A stretch of DNA of 64,000 bases, from the NCBI GenBank assembly GCA_035772405.1, contig JAYKKM010000118.1, positions 377,501 to 441,500 on the forward strand, in the 5' to 3' direction. Below are positions 6,510 through 14,255 of the stretch, one piece after another. Origin of the DNA: Chrysogorgia sp. JL179-B06 (Eukaryota; Cnidaria; Anthozoa; Scleralcyonacea; Chrysogorgiidae). A program made the position numbers and the translations under genes. The notes beneath the pieces are model-generated. The model saw only the letters and a program-made list of their open reading frames with translations, was not told the DNA's origin and searched no databases. The stretch's first letter is position 1. Every line of letters starts with the position of its first letter.

Positions 6510-7155
6510 GTGATGCATATACTACTTTTGCTTTTATGCATATATTACTTTTATGCATTATTACTTTTGCTTTTATGCATATATTACGTTTATGCATATA
6601 TTACTTTTATGCATATACTACTTTTGATTTTATGCATATATTACTTTTATGCATATATTACTTTTATGCATATACTACTTTTGCTTTTATACATATATTA
6701 CTTTTATCCATTATTACTTTTGCTTTTATGCATATATTACTTTTGATTTTATGCATATATTACTTTTATGCATTATTACTTTTGCTTTTATGCATATATT
6801 ACTTTTACGCATATATTACTTTTGATTTTATGCATATATTACTTTTATGCATTTATTACTTTTATGCATATACTACTTTTATGCATTTATTACTTTTATG
6901 CATATATTACTTTTGGTTTTATGCATATATTACTTGTATGCATATATTACTTTTGATTTTATGCATATATTACTTTTATGCATATACTACTTTTACTTTT
7001 ATGCATATATTACTCAATACTTTTATGCATATACTACTTTTTCTTTTATCATGCATATACTACTTTTATGCATATATTACTTTTGCTTGTATGTATATAC
7101 TACAATTATGCGCATACTATTTTTGCTTTTATGCATATATTACTTTTATGCATAG
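6510..7155. repeat. TTTTATGCATATATTAC minisatellite
   Basis: About 650 bp of tandem units, mostly 17-21 bp, built on TTTTATGCATATATTAC with variants inserting TTTGAT or TTTGCT. Every frame is open because the unit lacks stops, producing IYYFYAY-type translations that are not genes. It ends about 20 bp before the terminal repeat of the transposon at 7180. Confidence 0.9.
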
Positions 7156-7362
7156 ATAAAAACTATGGAAAGTCTTTAAAGTGCCCATGACCCTTACAGC
7201 AAAAAAATACACAAAAATACTTCAGACGTGATGCGAATACTGTATCCAAAAATAAATTGAAGAGAGTGTATCGTTAAGGGTTTATGTTGCTTTGAAGTTG
7301 AATATTTTGCGTGAATCGAATGTAATTTTCGCGCATGAAAAGACTCGGTACTAACACTGTTC

Positions 7363-7382
7363 GTGACGTCATTTACGGAACG
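7363..7382. promoter_or_regulatory. Left copy of 20-bp internal inverted repeat with TGACGTCA
   Basis: The sequence GTGACGTCATTTACGGAACG contains the CRE/ATF palindrome TGACGTCA and recurs perfectly inverted at 12467-12486. It lies about 110 bp before the transposase ATG. Matching placement before both genes suggests a shared promoter element, a transposase-binding site, or both. Function is inferred. Confidence 0.5.
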
Positions 7383-7491
7383 GAAGTAGTTATTGTTAGG
7401 AGTATGGTTAGCATAATTCGCGTATGAGTGCCAATTTCTTTTTTATTTTGTACACATTGAAATCTTGAAGTTATTTATAAAAGTAATAACA

Positions 7492-10400
7492 ATGCCAGAT
7501 AGATGCGTTGTTATTAATTGTTCCAGTATTAATGATCCTGCAAATGGTATATCTCTGCATCGAATTCCATTTTGGGATGATGAGCGGCCAGAAGCCAGGA
7601 AAAGGAAACGGCAATGGATCGCATTCGTTTCTCGCAAACGTAGCAAATGGCATCCTTCGAAATCGTCGGTTGTGTGTTCGAAACATTTCAGGCCAGACGA
7701 TTTTGTACGCAAGTTTACTGGTTTTGCAGAAAAGGAACTGAAGTATGAAGCCCGATTGAAGAGAGACTATATCGGAATATCAGCCATCCCTTCTGTGTAT
7801 CCGGTAAATGAACAAATGTCAGAACAACCTATGTCAAATCGTGAAAGACGAAGGGTAAGTTGCACAACGATTTGCTTCTTTTTAATTGCATAATGTTATT
7901 TGTTGTCCAGATGATCTTCGTGACTTCGTAATTTTATTGACTGATATATTAAGACTTTAAAAGAGACGATCAACAAACCAATCCAGAACTTATCAATATC
8001 CTCTGAAGATTTGGTGTCTGGATCCTTGAAAGATGAAGAACCTGAACAAGAACCATTGGTAAGTCCTACAAATATGTACGAGTCTGGATGCTTGGTTTCC
8101 ACAGTTCCGAAAAGACGTTGAAAAATAACTAACTTCTATCCGAACATAGTCTTAGGGGAAACCCAACTGAACGTACGCAGGTTATATATATATTACTATA
8201 CAAAAACAATTATTATAAGCAACAAATCTATTTATCAGGCTTGTATTTGCACTAATATAGACTTCTCTTGAATGAAATTTACCAACAGGTTAAGGATGCA
8301 TCAACGGAAACATCAGGTTGTATCGGCTGCAAAAATTTGAATACTCATAAACGCCAAATGCGTAATAGATGGTTATCAACGAAAGAAAAACTAAAGAAAT
8401 GCAGGGCTCAGTTAAGAAAATTATCTGGTAATGCGGTTTTATTGTGGTGAAGTTTTTCGTAAAGCAATATAATTAGCAATTACAGCTTTGAATATGCTCT
8501 TGACATTGTAGATCGTGGAAAAAAACCTAAATCATTTAAACCATCAAGTCCCGACGCCACCGAAAAAGACAAAATCAATTTGGATCAATCTTTGTCTACA
8601 GCGGGTTTCTACGAGCCGTGTGATTATAGTGAAAGTGAATCTGATACATTGTCGGAAAAAGATTCAGATGATGAGCATTATGTCGAAGAAGCCGAATTCA
8701 TTGATGAAACAAGTACAGAAGATTCAGAAGACGAAGATTTACCAACGCAGAACTCCAGGTAATAAAACAAATATGTGTTCATTTTCTAGTTTATGGTATA
8801 TTGTGGACGTTATAATAACCAAATACCTTTCTATATTTCAATTTGTAATTCATTATATAGGGTGACTGTAAAAGACCAACAAGACCAAGACATTCGAACA
8901 GAACCGAAGTACATTGTTTTCTTTTCTCAGCTACTATTATTGTTTCACTTATGCCCAGCCTGCAAATCAGAGAACCCACTTGTAGAAACAAGACAAGTAG
9001 GAACTTTGGTTGAGGTGAAAACAATATGTGGAAATAATAACTGCAGTGAGAAAGAGAATATATGGTACAGTCAACCACATATACCTGGATCAAGAATCCC
9101 TGCATGTAATTTACTGGTCAGTTTTGGCATCCTCTTGTCTGGTTGTTCACCCAGTAAAGTTTTGAATTTGTTTACACATATTGGATTAGCTGGTATTTCA
9201 CTTAGAAGATATTTCAAATTTCAAAGTGTAAGTGAAAAGTAATATTAACCAATAAGGGGCAAGGGTGCACATATGGAATTTTATTCTGGCCAACACCAGA
9301 CATTTTATTAGCAGATCAGTGGTATATGCCTGCACCTTAATTAGTTAAATAGTTAAAGATCTAGCAACATCTTGGGTTAGATATTTTGGCTAGTTGCCAC
9401 GACACCCACCAAATATGTAATGATCTTTTTCTTTAGGATATATTATATCCTGCAATATCAATCCACTGGACAACCTACCAGGAAAAAATGTTGACACAAT
9501 TGAAGTCCCTTAATTTAGGTCTCACTGTGTCTGGTGATGGAAGACATGATAGCATGGGGCACTCAGCAAAGTATTGTGCTTACACAATTTTTTCTGGTGA
9601 TAACACCAAAATCATACACTTTAGTCTTGTCCAGGTAAACTACTATTTACAATATATTAAACTGTCTGTATAAAAACTATAGTACTCCATATATCTCATT
9701 CCCCCACAGATTAGTAAATGTTTGACCTTTTCATAGAAAAATGAAACATCGAGTAGCACAGCAATGGAATATATGGCATTCCAAAGATGTTTTACTTTTT
9801 TACACAATAATGGACTACCTATCAGTACATTTATTTCTGATCGGCATTCATCCATTGCAAAGCATATGAAGGAGAAGCTACCCAACACAAAGCATTACTT
9901 TGATTTATGGCATTTGGCAAAAAGTAAGTTAACTAAGATTAAAGCCTGGTTCCATTAAATAGTCATAAAAATTGTAGATGGCAACCAAATGTTGTTTCAT
10001 GAAGAATGAACAACATTTACATTTACCATAACCCCCTCTCCCAATAGCCAACAAAAATTATAAAAATTATATATAAGCCAACAAAAATGTAAACAAAATT
10101 TTTTTGCAGAAATTCGCAAAGTGTTGACAAAAACTGCCAAAGTAAATGGGTGTGAAGCATTGACAGACTGGATCAAGCCATGCGAAAGACATCTCTACTG
10201 GAGTGCTACTTCAACCATCAACGGTGATGGAAATGTGATGTGGGCCAAATTTAAATCTTTTTTATCACACATTATTAATATGCATTCAAATTTAGATGAG
10301 CCACTTTTTAATAAATGTGCCCATGATACTGATATCACTCAACGGAAATGGTTAATAAAAGGTTAGTATACTTTATCATAACAATAACCCATAAAAACAA

Positions 10401-11416
10401 ACCTGTTTTGAACAATCAAGAGGCACTGACTTGGAGCAAGTCTAGTATATTGTCAGATTGAGTTATAAAACCATATTGTGAACTATTTTCATTGCTTACC
10501 ATTACCATTTCAGAATCTTTAGTTTATGAAAAAGTTTATGGTGCCCTTACTAATAAACGACTTGTCAATGGGATAAGAAAAGCTTCCCCAAAAGAACAGA
10601 CAAGCTGTATAGAAGGATTCCACTCCACCTTAAACCAGTTTTCCCCAAAGATGGTGGCATATTCCTATGTCGGGATGTTCTGTAGGTATGATTCTAAAAG
10701 TAAGTCAATTTTGAAGGTCTACTGTATATATAATTATTTATAGTATGCTTTATCTTTTAGGCATATCATTGCTGTACTTCATTTTAACTACAATTTGGAT
10801 CGAAAAACCATAACAGAATCAAGTGGACAAAACCGGCTGAAGGTGACCTACCCAAAGTTCAAAAATGGACAAGCCACAGTTCGGGAAGTTCGTGTCAGAC
10901 AAGATTTTGGTCAGTTTTCTGACAGTTCAAATGTGGGATATTTTTATAAGGGCTCTTTCAAATTGTGAACTTTTGTATTTTATAGCTTATGTGGATGAGA
11001 TATTTAAAACCATGATAACAATGGACAAAAAGACACTGAATACAGCCAAAGCTACATTAATTGCAATGACACCATCTCCAATGAACTCAGTGCTAGAGAA
11101 GCAACCAAAACAAGATGCTATTAAAATTCACCTTGAACGAAAACAAATGAAAGCGATCAATGTCCCACCCACTACGTCTACAGCTCCAGGTAAATACAGT
11201 AGAACCCATTTTTTGCATCCCACCACATAGTGTGATGTTATTTGGTGTACAATATGTTCACCTTTTATTTTTTTGTCTATTTATGATTATATAGTGTCAA
11301 ATGTCCAAGTGAACCCAAGAAAAACTCGTTGCTGCAGAGTATGCAAAAACCCAATGAAAGGACATAAAAATGTGACCAATTGCCCAAAAAATGCAAGACA
11401 GAACGACGGCGAATAA
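7492..11416 (+). CDS. THAP-domain transposase, 12 exons, intact
   Basis: Exons: 7492-7854, 7966-8058, 8289-8427, 8512-8758, 8861-9227, 9437-9634, 9737-9923, 10110-10361, 10514-10685, 10761-10909, 10986-11189, 11295-11416; all phases agree, giving about 830 aa. The N-terminus is a C2CH THAP DNA-binding domain (Cys5, Cys10, Cys62, His65, then FRPDDF). A basic, probably coiled segment and a Ser/Glu/Asp-rich acidic linker follow, then a cysteine pair module (CPACKS and CGNNNC) and the catalytic region. Candidate acidic residues are Asp437/441 in SGDGRHDSMGH, Asp504 in FISDRHSS and Glu649 in SCIEGFHSTL. The C-terminus ends in a zinc-knuckle-like CCRVCKNPMKGH...C. The layout matches THAP transposases of Kolobok/P-like elements. 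The start was chosen because the THAP cysteines follow at once. The absence of lesions across 12 exons suggests recent activity or domestication. Confidence 0.85.
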
Positions 11417-11445
11417 GCTAGTTAGGTTCAGTAGACAATGTAAAA

Positions 11446-12387
11446 TCATTCATTATCTTCTCTAAAACCAGTAAATTCTTCTTTTCCTACTTTAAATGTA
11501 CTCCTTATTGAATGATATGTACAAGCAGGCAGAGGTATTCTTTTATTCCCAAGATATCCGTGGATTAAATACGTAAATTCGCGGTACGCAACGAGACGCA
11601 AGAATCTGTTTGAAAATAAGAAAGACGCCTGTAAGGAACAATCTGGACCCAATCCGAGATGACAAAACACCGTACAACACAATGTCATGTTCACATAATA
11701 TATTCTATACTGTACTTACTCTGTTTCCGTTCCGGTCTGTTTATACTTTCTTTGGTCTCTTGTCTTGTGCTTCCTAGCAGCTTGTCGTAAGGACCATTTC
11801 TCAAGACAAACTACTGCGAAGCCTGGATGTAATGTTACGCACGGTGGTACTTCGCTGACATCTTGTAGAACTAAAGTATCATTAAGGGCTTCCATACAGC
11901 CATCAATTTCAGTACAACAGTAACACTCCTTGGTACATTGAAGGAGTTCGATTCGACAATGACCACATTTGCACCTGAGAGGAAAAATGTAATCGGTATT
12001 TAATACATACAGAAACTAAATCACAAACGATTGTCAATTGATAGATCACGCTTCTGGTTTGTATATACATAAAATACATTGTACAAAACAGTACTTCTAA
12101 TACAATTCTTACCAGGCTTCGACGGGTTCACTGCCTTCTAATCGTCGGGAAAATTCTCTTTCTCTTTCTTCGTTTACTACCATTTGCTTGTTATATTCTA
12201 CCAACCAACCTTCGTCAGCTAGTGGTTCGTCTGCGTACGGAACATTTGCACGAGTATTATCTATATTGTCGTCCGACAAGTTTTCCACTCCTGAAGCTCC
12301 TTCTTCGACTTCGAAAACATTTCCGGTGAAAAAGTTGTACTCCGAGTCGTTTTGACTATTTTCCGAGTCGGAACTGGAAGATGACAT
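11446..12387 (-). CDS. P2X7 ballast-domain-like zinc protein (transposon-borne)
   Basis: Exons on the minus strand: 12387-12113, 11974-11720 and 11605-11446, in phase, about 229 aa. The first exon is acidic and Ser/Asp/Glu-rich (starts MSSSSSDSENS). The rest matches the cytoplasmic C-terminal 'ballast' of vertebrate P2X7 receptors: WCKCGHC, ECYCC, GCM, then CVTLHPGFAVVCLEKW, then RFLRLVAYREFTYLIHGYLG and PLPACTYHSIRSTF near the end. In P2X7 that domain coordinates zinc and binds guanine nucleotide. No transmembrane segment or ATP-gated channel domain is present, so this is a stand-alone ballast protein rather than a receptor. The gene runs tail to tail with the transposase (29 bp between stops) inside the same terminal repeats, so it is cargo or a second functional component. 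Its role in transposition is unknown. Confidence 0.85.
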
Positions 12388-12466
12388 CCTATTTACATCA
12401 TAAATCGCAGGTTACACCACAAGAAAAATCTAAAACCATGTTTTGATTGTTGATGGATAGTGTCGA

Positions 12467-12486
12467 CGTTCCGTAAATGACGTCAC
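12467..12486. promoter_or_regulatory. Right copy of 20-bp internal inverted repeat with TGACGTCA
   Basis: Perfect inverted copy of 7363-7382, about 80 bp upstream of the ballast-protein ATG on the minus strand. Confidence 0.5.
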
Positions 12487-12660
12487 AGACCCAGTCCCCC
12501 TCGATACGCGACTTTTTCAAATATTGAGCGCTTTTCCAACAACTTTGGCCGTTAATAACTCGTTCAAAAATAATTTGATCGGCGTAGTTTTTCCGGAATT
12601 AAAATAAGTACGTTACGTACTTTCTTTACTGGTGTTATAAATTTTTGGGTCATAGGCACT

Positions 12661-14255
12661 ACAGTACCTCATGACAAAGGGCCTTTGCTCGAAAGTTAGA
12701 TCTGTCATATAATAGTTTGAAGAAGGACACATCGTTCGAAACGTCGTCTATGAATATACGTATTAAGTACTCTTTATACTTAAGTATTTTTTATTTTCAA
12801 GTTCTATTATTACTCCTTGTCATATTACATCCAGTTCTTTTGAAAACTTAGCAGCTTTCATATCTATTCTATATATAATAGTATATACACACATTTCGGC
12901 AGTACCCAACCCTTTAGAGTTTTCAATACATCCATACATATGTACATACATATGCATGCTACTATCAACCACAGGTTTATTCTGTCACTCCAAGTATCCC
13001 ATTTCCGTATGTGTTATAGAGCCCTAGTTAAAAGTAATATTTGTAAATAATGAGCTTTAACATTTTCACCTGTGACCGTTAATTAATAGGAAATACGATG
13101 ATAACAGCCGTACTGTATGTCATTATATGCTCGTCTTCTCTTCTTTTGAGATAACACTGATCTTAAGCTCGTCTTTTACTGCACTTTTCTATCGACCGAC
13201 TCATTCTGTAATTACCTCTTTTTTGTTTCATAGGCCATACCTGAACTCACGGGAAAAATCTAAAAATAAATCAATCATGGCGGCTCATTCCTACCACTGC
13301 CGAGGAGGAAACATTATTTCACGGGAACACTCTCGATTTTTATCTTTGTAAATTATTGTACTGGTAAGCTCCATTGGTGAAGCTAATTATTTCAATAACT
13401 CCAAGCAACATGGATGATCTGTGATGAATGTCGGGCCGTTTTAACAGTTTCCCTTGATATGGCCCGTCGAGTTAAAAAAAAACAATTTCAATATTCTTCT
13501 GTTTACTCGACCTTTCAAGATGAAGCCGCAATCTATCTTATATATTGAGTGTATTCAGCGAGTTATGATTAGTATGAGCTTTTATTAACTACATATATCT
13601 CGCGTTTAAACAGACAATCAATCATAAGGTTTGTTATAGAAGACTTGACGCCAACCTTGTGTTCTTTGCGAAACCTTCGGCAAATAATGCCGGATGGTTG
13701 TCACACTTCTTTTCTGCCATCTGTGGCATTTTATGGGTTTTATTTAATTTTTAATTTCCCATATTATGATCAAAGCCACAACGTGCTGTACTCTCTATTA
13801 ACTTCGCATACCAGACGCTGAAATTAGTCTTGTGCTTTTTTATTAATCGAAAATGAGACACCTCGCCTAGCTCGGCCATTTTGGGAATGAAATGAAATAT
13901 TTTTATGGCGAGAATTTGATCTCTTGATGACGTCTTCGAACCAGTGGAACTTTTCGTGTGGCTTTTCTTTCATTGCCGATGAAAACTTCGCTTAATCTTT
14001 TTTTTTTAAATGCGGCACTGACGTTAATCGGAAAAGGGATTTGCTATAACCGTGAACTGGTTTGATTTGTTTTCCATGCAACTCGACAAATATAGGACCA
14101 GCTGTCAAGAATCGCAATTCATTAAAATTTCTTAGACTTATGGAGTTTAACAGTTAATTTTTTTAAGAAATCACCTGTAATGAATTGAGCTAACGTCACT
14201 TCTTAGTCTGCTTTGGAAAATAAATTAAAAGTGCGCATCAATCATAGTGTTCACG
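12661..14255. other. Intergenic, decayed repeats, then upstream region of TMEM26
   Basis: At 12665-12755 there are two adjacent degraded hammerhead-like strings (ATGACAAAGGGC...GCTCGAAAG and TTGAAGAAGG...TTCGAAACG). The remainder is unique AT-rich sequence with no supported gene; short frames at 13127-13351 match nothing I recognise. The TMEM26 promoter and 5' UTR should lie near 14100-14255, but no clear motif was seen. Confidence 0.5.

Follow-up and report, generated by a model that had tools for sequence, protein, structure and literature searches.

A Kolobok transposon of Chrysogorgia with a THAP/DDE transposase gene and a convergent P2X7 ballast-like gene, KolX

The question raised by this locus is whether a gene whose product resembles the cytoplasmic ballast of the P2X7 receptor, lying tail to tail with a THAP transposase gene, is a working part of a mobile element or a passenger. 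The locus lies in a 64,000-nucleotide stretch of DNA from Chrysogorgia sp. JL179-B06 (contig JAYKKM010000118.1, positions 377,501 to 441,500; hereafter the window), where an initial annotation made from the sequence alone had described an intact two-gene transposon. The element (Table 1) is almost certainly a Kol0-type Kolobok transposon and the ballast gene its KolX gene; the assignment to Kol0 is based on KolX beside the transposase and on published descriptions.

The ends of the element are matched and inverted as first described: AGTGCCCATGACCC agrees with the reverse complement of the right end in 13 of 14 bases, and similarity to a second copy (C260) spans 7176-12660. The termini, AGTGCC...GGCACT, have the 5'-RR / YY-3' form (AG..CT) typical of the Kolobok superfamily. 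The description of two complete convergent genes of 12 and 3 exons without lesions, 29 bp apart, was also upheld, both frames being open. The joined transposase exons encode 834 residues with no stop, and all 12 are bordered by GT-AG; the exon structures of both genes are predictions from frame and homology. The transposase matched the Pfam THAP model (PF05485) at 46.1 bits against a cut-off of 23.9, while the Pfam MULE transposase model reached 21.6 bits, below its cut-off of 27.6. The motifs GDGRHDS (440), ISDRH (506), DLWH (529), HIINMH (589), CAH (605) and CIEGFHS (651) follow in order, and their positions point to a DDD/E transposase with the C/DxxH and H2CH motifs which, together with a THAP domain, mark Kolobok. 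The same combination of DxxH and H-H-C-H motifs with a THAP domain is given for Kolobok transposases in PMC6004289.

Table 1. Features of the element, in window coordinates
Feature	Position	Strand	Length or size	Basis
Kol0-type Kolobok DNA transposon (predicted)	7180-12660		5,481 bp	Matched ends and two convergent genes
TTAA target site, left side	7176..7179	.	4 bp	Counterpart on right absent
Left terminal inverted repeat, AGTGCCCATGACCC	7180..7193	+		Comparison of ends, seen across copies
THAP/DDE Kolobok transposase gene (predicted)	7492..11416	+	834 aa, 12 exons	GT-AG borders, frame, Pfam THAP, motifs
Transposase exons 1-6	7492-7854, 7954-8058, 8289-8427, 8512-8758, 8861-9227, 9437-9634	+		GT-AG, frame
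Transposase exons 7-12	9737-9923, 10110-10361, 10514-10685, 10761-10909, 10986-11189, 11295-11416	+		GT-AG, frame
THAP zinc-finger DNA-binding domain with AIPSVY box	7504..7797	+	Residues 5-102	PF05485, 46.1 bits
Gap between convergent stop codons	11417..11445	.	29 bp	Gene coordinates
KolX (P2X7 ballast-fold) gene (predicted)	11446..12387	-	229 aa, 3 exons	Frame; PF20478; fold match of a relative
KolX exons 1-3	12387-12113, 11974-11720, 11605-11446	-		Frame, homology
Right terminal inverted repeat, AGTGCCTATGACCC on - strand	12647..12660	-		Comparison of ends, seen across copies

The KolX protein scored 28.5 bits against the Pfam P2RX7_C model (PF20478, P2X7 intracellular domain), whose cut-off is 23.5, and a fold search with a relative (P0004) matched P2X7 only. 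In searches of PDB, the window protein used as a single sequence gave no P2X7 match; with a profile of 19 KolX relatives P2X7 was the sole match at E <=1, a weak one (E 0.087-0.2). The window protein and 19 relatives were aligned with rat P2X7. Cysteine occupied the positions of rat C477, C479, C482, C498, C499, C506 and C572 in 20, 17, 20, 20, 20, 19 and 20 of the 20 proteins, respectively, and all seven zinc-site positions are cysteine in the window protein. The counterparts of Y550 and F581 were conserved in 19/20 and 20/20. The zinc cysteines are kept in KolX.

The pairing of the two genes was counted in the places fetched from the host genome (781 Mb, 522 contigs), leaving out L001-L008, which repeat places in longer loci. 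Besides the window, 15 places hold the DDE region, and each of the 15 has KolX following it on the other strand. Transposase similarity had led to eight of these places (L019-L024, L031, L032), similarity to the whole element to three (C260 and two on C80) and a ballast gene to four (a second, distant element in L015 on C75, and L025-L027); together they span divergent subfamilies. Other copies lacking the ballast gene throughout would, according to the initial annotation, speak against its reading; what was found is KolX at each of these 15 places. Locus L018 holds a fragment of the THAP region only, without a ballast gene. For four others, the fetched stretch contains a ballast gene but no transposase to pair with it: the first on C75 and those on C249 (L016), C397 (L017) and C63 (L028). 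Stops occur in the aligned part of the C75 and C397 genes and a gap falls at a conserved cysteine in that of C249; these three look decayed rather than kept.

More than 100 KolX places were found in the genome among the matches listed. When 141 listed KolX places were compared with 142 transposase rows, rows for further exons of listed copies having been dropped, a convergent KolX was listed for 32 of 50 transposases of at least 47% identity, for 0 of 49 at 40-46% and for 0 of 43 under 40%. Counted from the other side, among the same matches, a convergent transposase was listed for 32 of the 141 KolX places, or 45 after the addition of 21 further places, and two more lie near a transposase on the same strand. 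We considered whether the zeros under 47% meant that KolX is confined to one clade. This was rejected since the distant L031 and L032 both carry a convergent KolX; the zeros arise because the listing consists of close relatives, the best 150 of 1558 candidates scored.

Several of these places have features of their own. L031 (C240) and L032 (C439) belong to Kolobok lineages that are distant from the window element, with identities of about 38% and 44% in the transposase core, and have very diverged, convergent KolX genes; the transposase core of L031 lies within a single open frame of 724 codons. L025 and L026 (C112 and C336), together with C494 and C192 by the hit list, form a subfamily in which the KolX match is unbroken, without introns, and the transposase core is about 50-51% identical; its ends, AGGGCATATGACTC, were seen in L025. 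The C63 unit (L028:259-5546) measures 5,280 bp, has inverted ends flanked by TTAA and contains KolX, with a second piece of KolX exon 1 near the opposite end; no transposase was found in it by the probes used. On C249 (L016:1820-4459) KolX exons 1 and 2 are about 2.1 kb apart, as if the intron had received an insertion.

A search of the host genome with the whole element, which the initial annotation had proposed together with a comparison of filled and empty sites, revealed several two-gene copies between like ends, so that the window does not hold a single-copy locus without repeated ends. The C260 copy is 96-98% identical to the window element; its similarity begins at 7176, with the TTAA, and stops at 12660, and it has TTAA on both sides and is interrupted by two inserts. 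Two older copies on C80 carry both genes each, their aligned pieces being 69-81% identical to the window. C80a has TTAA on both sides with 5,166 bp between, and C80b has lost two bases at the right border. Both occupy one position within a sequence that, from its frame, reads as retroelement-like, and for this reason they probably derive from one insertion that was later duplicated. Uninterrupted, with a single TTAA, this site was counted 14 times (11 exact matches and 3 with a single mismatch), and the reversed pattern gave no match; around one empty site that was inspected, the sequence agrees with the flanks of the C80 copies.

Sixteen loci (10 + 4 + 2) were scanned by script for inverted ends bordered by TTAA, and seven showed a clear pair: C80a, C244 (5,669 bp), C267 (6,343 bp), C250b (6,316 bp), C112 (5,311 bp), C209 (5,367 bp) and C63 (5,280 bp, one mismatch). 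The other nine showed no or no convincing TTAA-flanked pair of ends, and some of these stretches may not extend to both ends. TTAA stands on both sides of C260, C80a, C244, C250b, C267, C209 and C112. The 4-bp TTAA duplication characteristic of Kolobok is therefore seen in relatives of the window copy, and the empty site has a single TTAA.

Two inserts were observed in the C260 copy. One of about 18.2 kb (C260 ~444,830-463,063; L009, L010, L011) lies within a transposase exon and has long matching inverted ends and an apparent 6-bp duplication, TATGGT. Its frames matched thymidine kinase (105.5 bits) and Bro-N (75.8 bits); the rve integrase core reached 26.8 bits, below the cut-off. We take this insert to be a Polinton/Maverick-like element. 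The second, of about 730 bp, lies in an intron at about 463,670-464,400 (L009:3670-4400).

The ratio of nonsynonymous to synonymous substitution rates (dN/dS) was determined for both genes. Between the window and C80b it was 0.166 for the transposase (bootstrap 95% 0.125-0.207, 747 codons) and 0.098 for KolX (0.054-0.160, 211 codons); the intervals overlap, indicating similar constraint on the two genes. Between the window and C80a the values were 0.158 and 0.119. These comparisons omit 12 KolX residues that are apparently out of frame, with which the KolX values become 0.111 (C80b) and 0.135 (C80a); since the synonymous distances are near 1.0-1.2 all are rough estimates, still far below 1. 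The KolX value between the window and C260, 0.131, comes from only 3 changes with an out-of-frame tail excluded, and is 0.471 with the tail. Among near-identical copies the transposase and KolX ratios were 0.98 and 0.27 (2 changes) for C80a-C80b and 0.86 and 0.63 for C244-C9, and the transposase ratio was 0.70 for C250a-C267, where KolX gave no value. Ratios near 1 are the pattern expected of copies decaying after insertion. The protein distances of the two genes are correlated over 8 copies (Mantel r 0.69, p 0.01), with the ballast distances of C80a inflated by alignment through an intron. Between lineages, purifying selection acts on KolX as it does on the transposase, and the ballast gene therefore belongs to the element. 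The proposal that it is a kept, functional part and not a bystander is borne out by this selection, the shared ends and the filled and empty site.

Such a pairing is already known. Kojima and Bao 2022 (Mobile DNA, PMC9587614) describe Kol0 as a group of Kolobok elements that code for KolX in addition to a transposase. They find KolX to match the C-terminus of P2X7 and its ballast fold, seven cysteines being conserved, and they trace P2X7 to a fusion between a P2X4-like gene and a KolX protein. The two boldest ideas of the initial annotation, that these genes go together and that the P2X7 tail has such an origin, had thus been published, and its description of an unusual mobile system was too strong, as KolX was already encoded by the originally reported Kolobok families (same source). 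The window element shares with the Kol0 group (type Kolobok-1_XT) the TTAA target, RR..YY termini (AG..CT), a DDE transposase with THAP and KolX as second protein; KolX beside the transposase was found both here, by PF20478, and convergently at the 15 other DDE places. It differs in its 12-exon transposase and 3-exon KolX genes and in its cnidarian host genome. KolobokP, KolobokD, KolobokE and KolobokH also combine a Kolobok transposase with an accessory protein, in their case nucleases or a helicase, whereas that of the window element is KolX (PMC9587614). With the P2X7 C-terminal ballast (P2RX7_C) and the free-standing ballast proteins treated by Rump et al. 2020 (PMC7016195), KolX shares the seven aligned cysteines and the Y550 and F581 counterparts; unlike P2X7 it has no receptor part, is encoded by a mobile element and has an acidic N-terminal region of its own. 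To the published work we add a test of selection, a count of gene pairs inside a single genome, the empty site, and residue counts for KolX. These results confirm independently, for a single genome and with selection tested, that Kolobok transposons are a home of the P2X7 ballast domain, which they carry as a kept gene. With its two open genes, the window copy offers a handle on the role of the ballast fold before its fusion to a vertebrate ion channel.

The best explanation of the locus, which we hold to be very likely, is a Kol0-type Kolobok transposon in which KolX would be a partner of the transposase that aids movement. By analogy with the Kolobok family, the THAP domain would bind the element ends and the DDE core would cut and insert at TTAA. 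KolX would be a small protein of the ballast fold, stabilised by zinc and bearing an acidic, disordered region at its N-terminus, serving the assembly, stability or nuclear delivery of the transposase and so helping the element to move. Selection maintains KolX between lineages, so the gene must be of some use to the element; that it acts as a positive cofactor is the simplest reading, to which we give about even chances. A negative regulator, by which the element would limit its own transposition, is possible if rather unlikely. Purifying selection fits any function that aids persistence of the element, and KolX-bearing places without a paired transposase do occur; on the other hand, those on C75, C249 and C397 carry the signs of decay described above. 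It is hardly credible that the ballast gene was captured from a host and is a bystander in the element, or that the two genes are domesticated or form a single-copy locus. The window copy does lack one TTAA: its right flank (12661-12664) reads ACAG, and it therefore has no target-site duplication, a blemish that speaks for such a reading. Against a bystander or domesticated pair stand the pairing at 15 of 15 places across divergent subfamilies, the KolX dN/dS of about 0.10 and the more than 100 KolX places listed.

The ballast protein had also been described initially as nucleotide-binding, and KolX might, as also suggested there, be a sensor of guanosine diphosphate (GDP) or guanosine triphosphate through which the state of the cell would influence transposition. 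In rat P2X7 a guanosine nucleotide is bound by this same fold, the contacts to GDP being R546, H547, R574, R578 and K583 (Rump et al. 2020, PMC7016195); these contacts are a feature of rat P2X7, unnecessary for the fold. The counterparts of R546 and R578 are kept in 19 of the 20 aligned proteins each, but H547, R574 and K583, the last at a loosely aligned position, are replaced in all 20, leaving two of the five contacts, and the strong conservation of KolX falls on the zinc cysteines. The same pattern of GDP contacts outside deuterostomes is reported in that paper. From these alignments nucleotide binding by KolX is doubtful, contrary to the earlier description, and a GDP sensor is improbable. 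A still longer shot is that KolX has a small ligand, a nucleotide or another, bound through residues unlike those of rat P2X7, that it thereby switches transposition with the state of the cell, and that P2X7 inherited this switch on capturing the domain.

Directly left of the element, window positions 6600-7160 are occupied by imperfect, AT-rich repeats in an array (TTTTATGCATATATTAC...).
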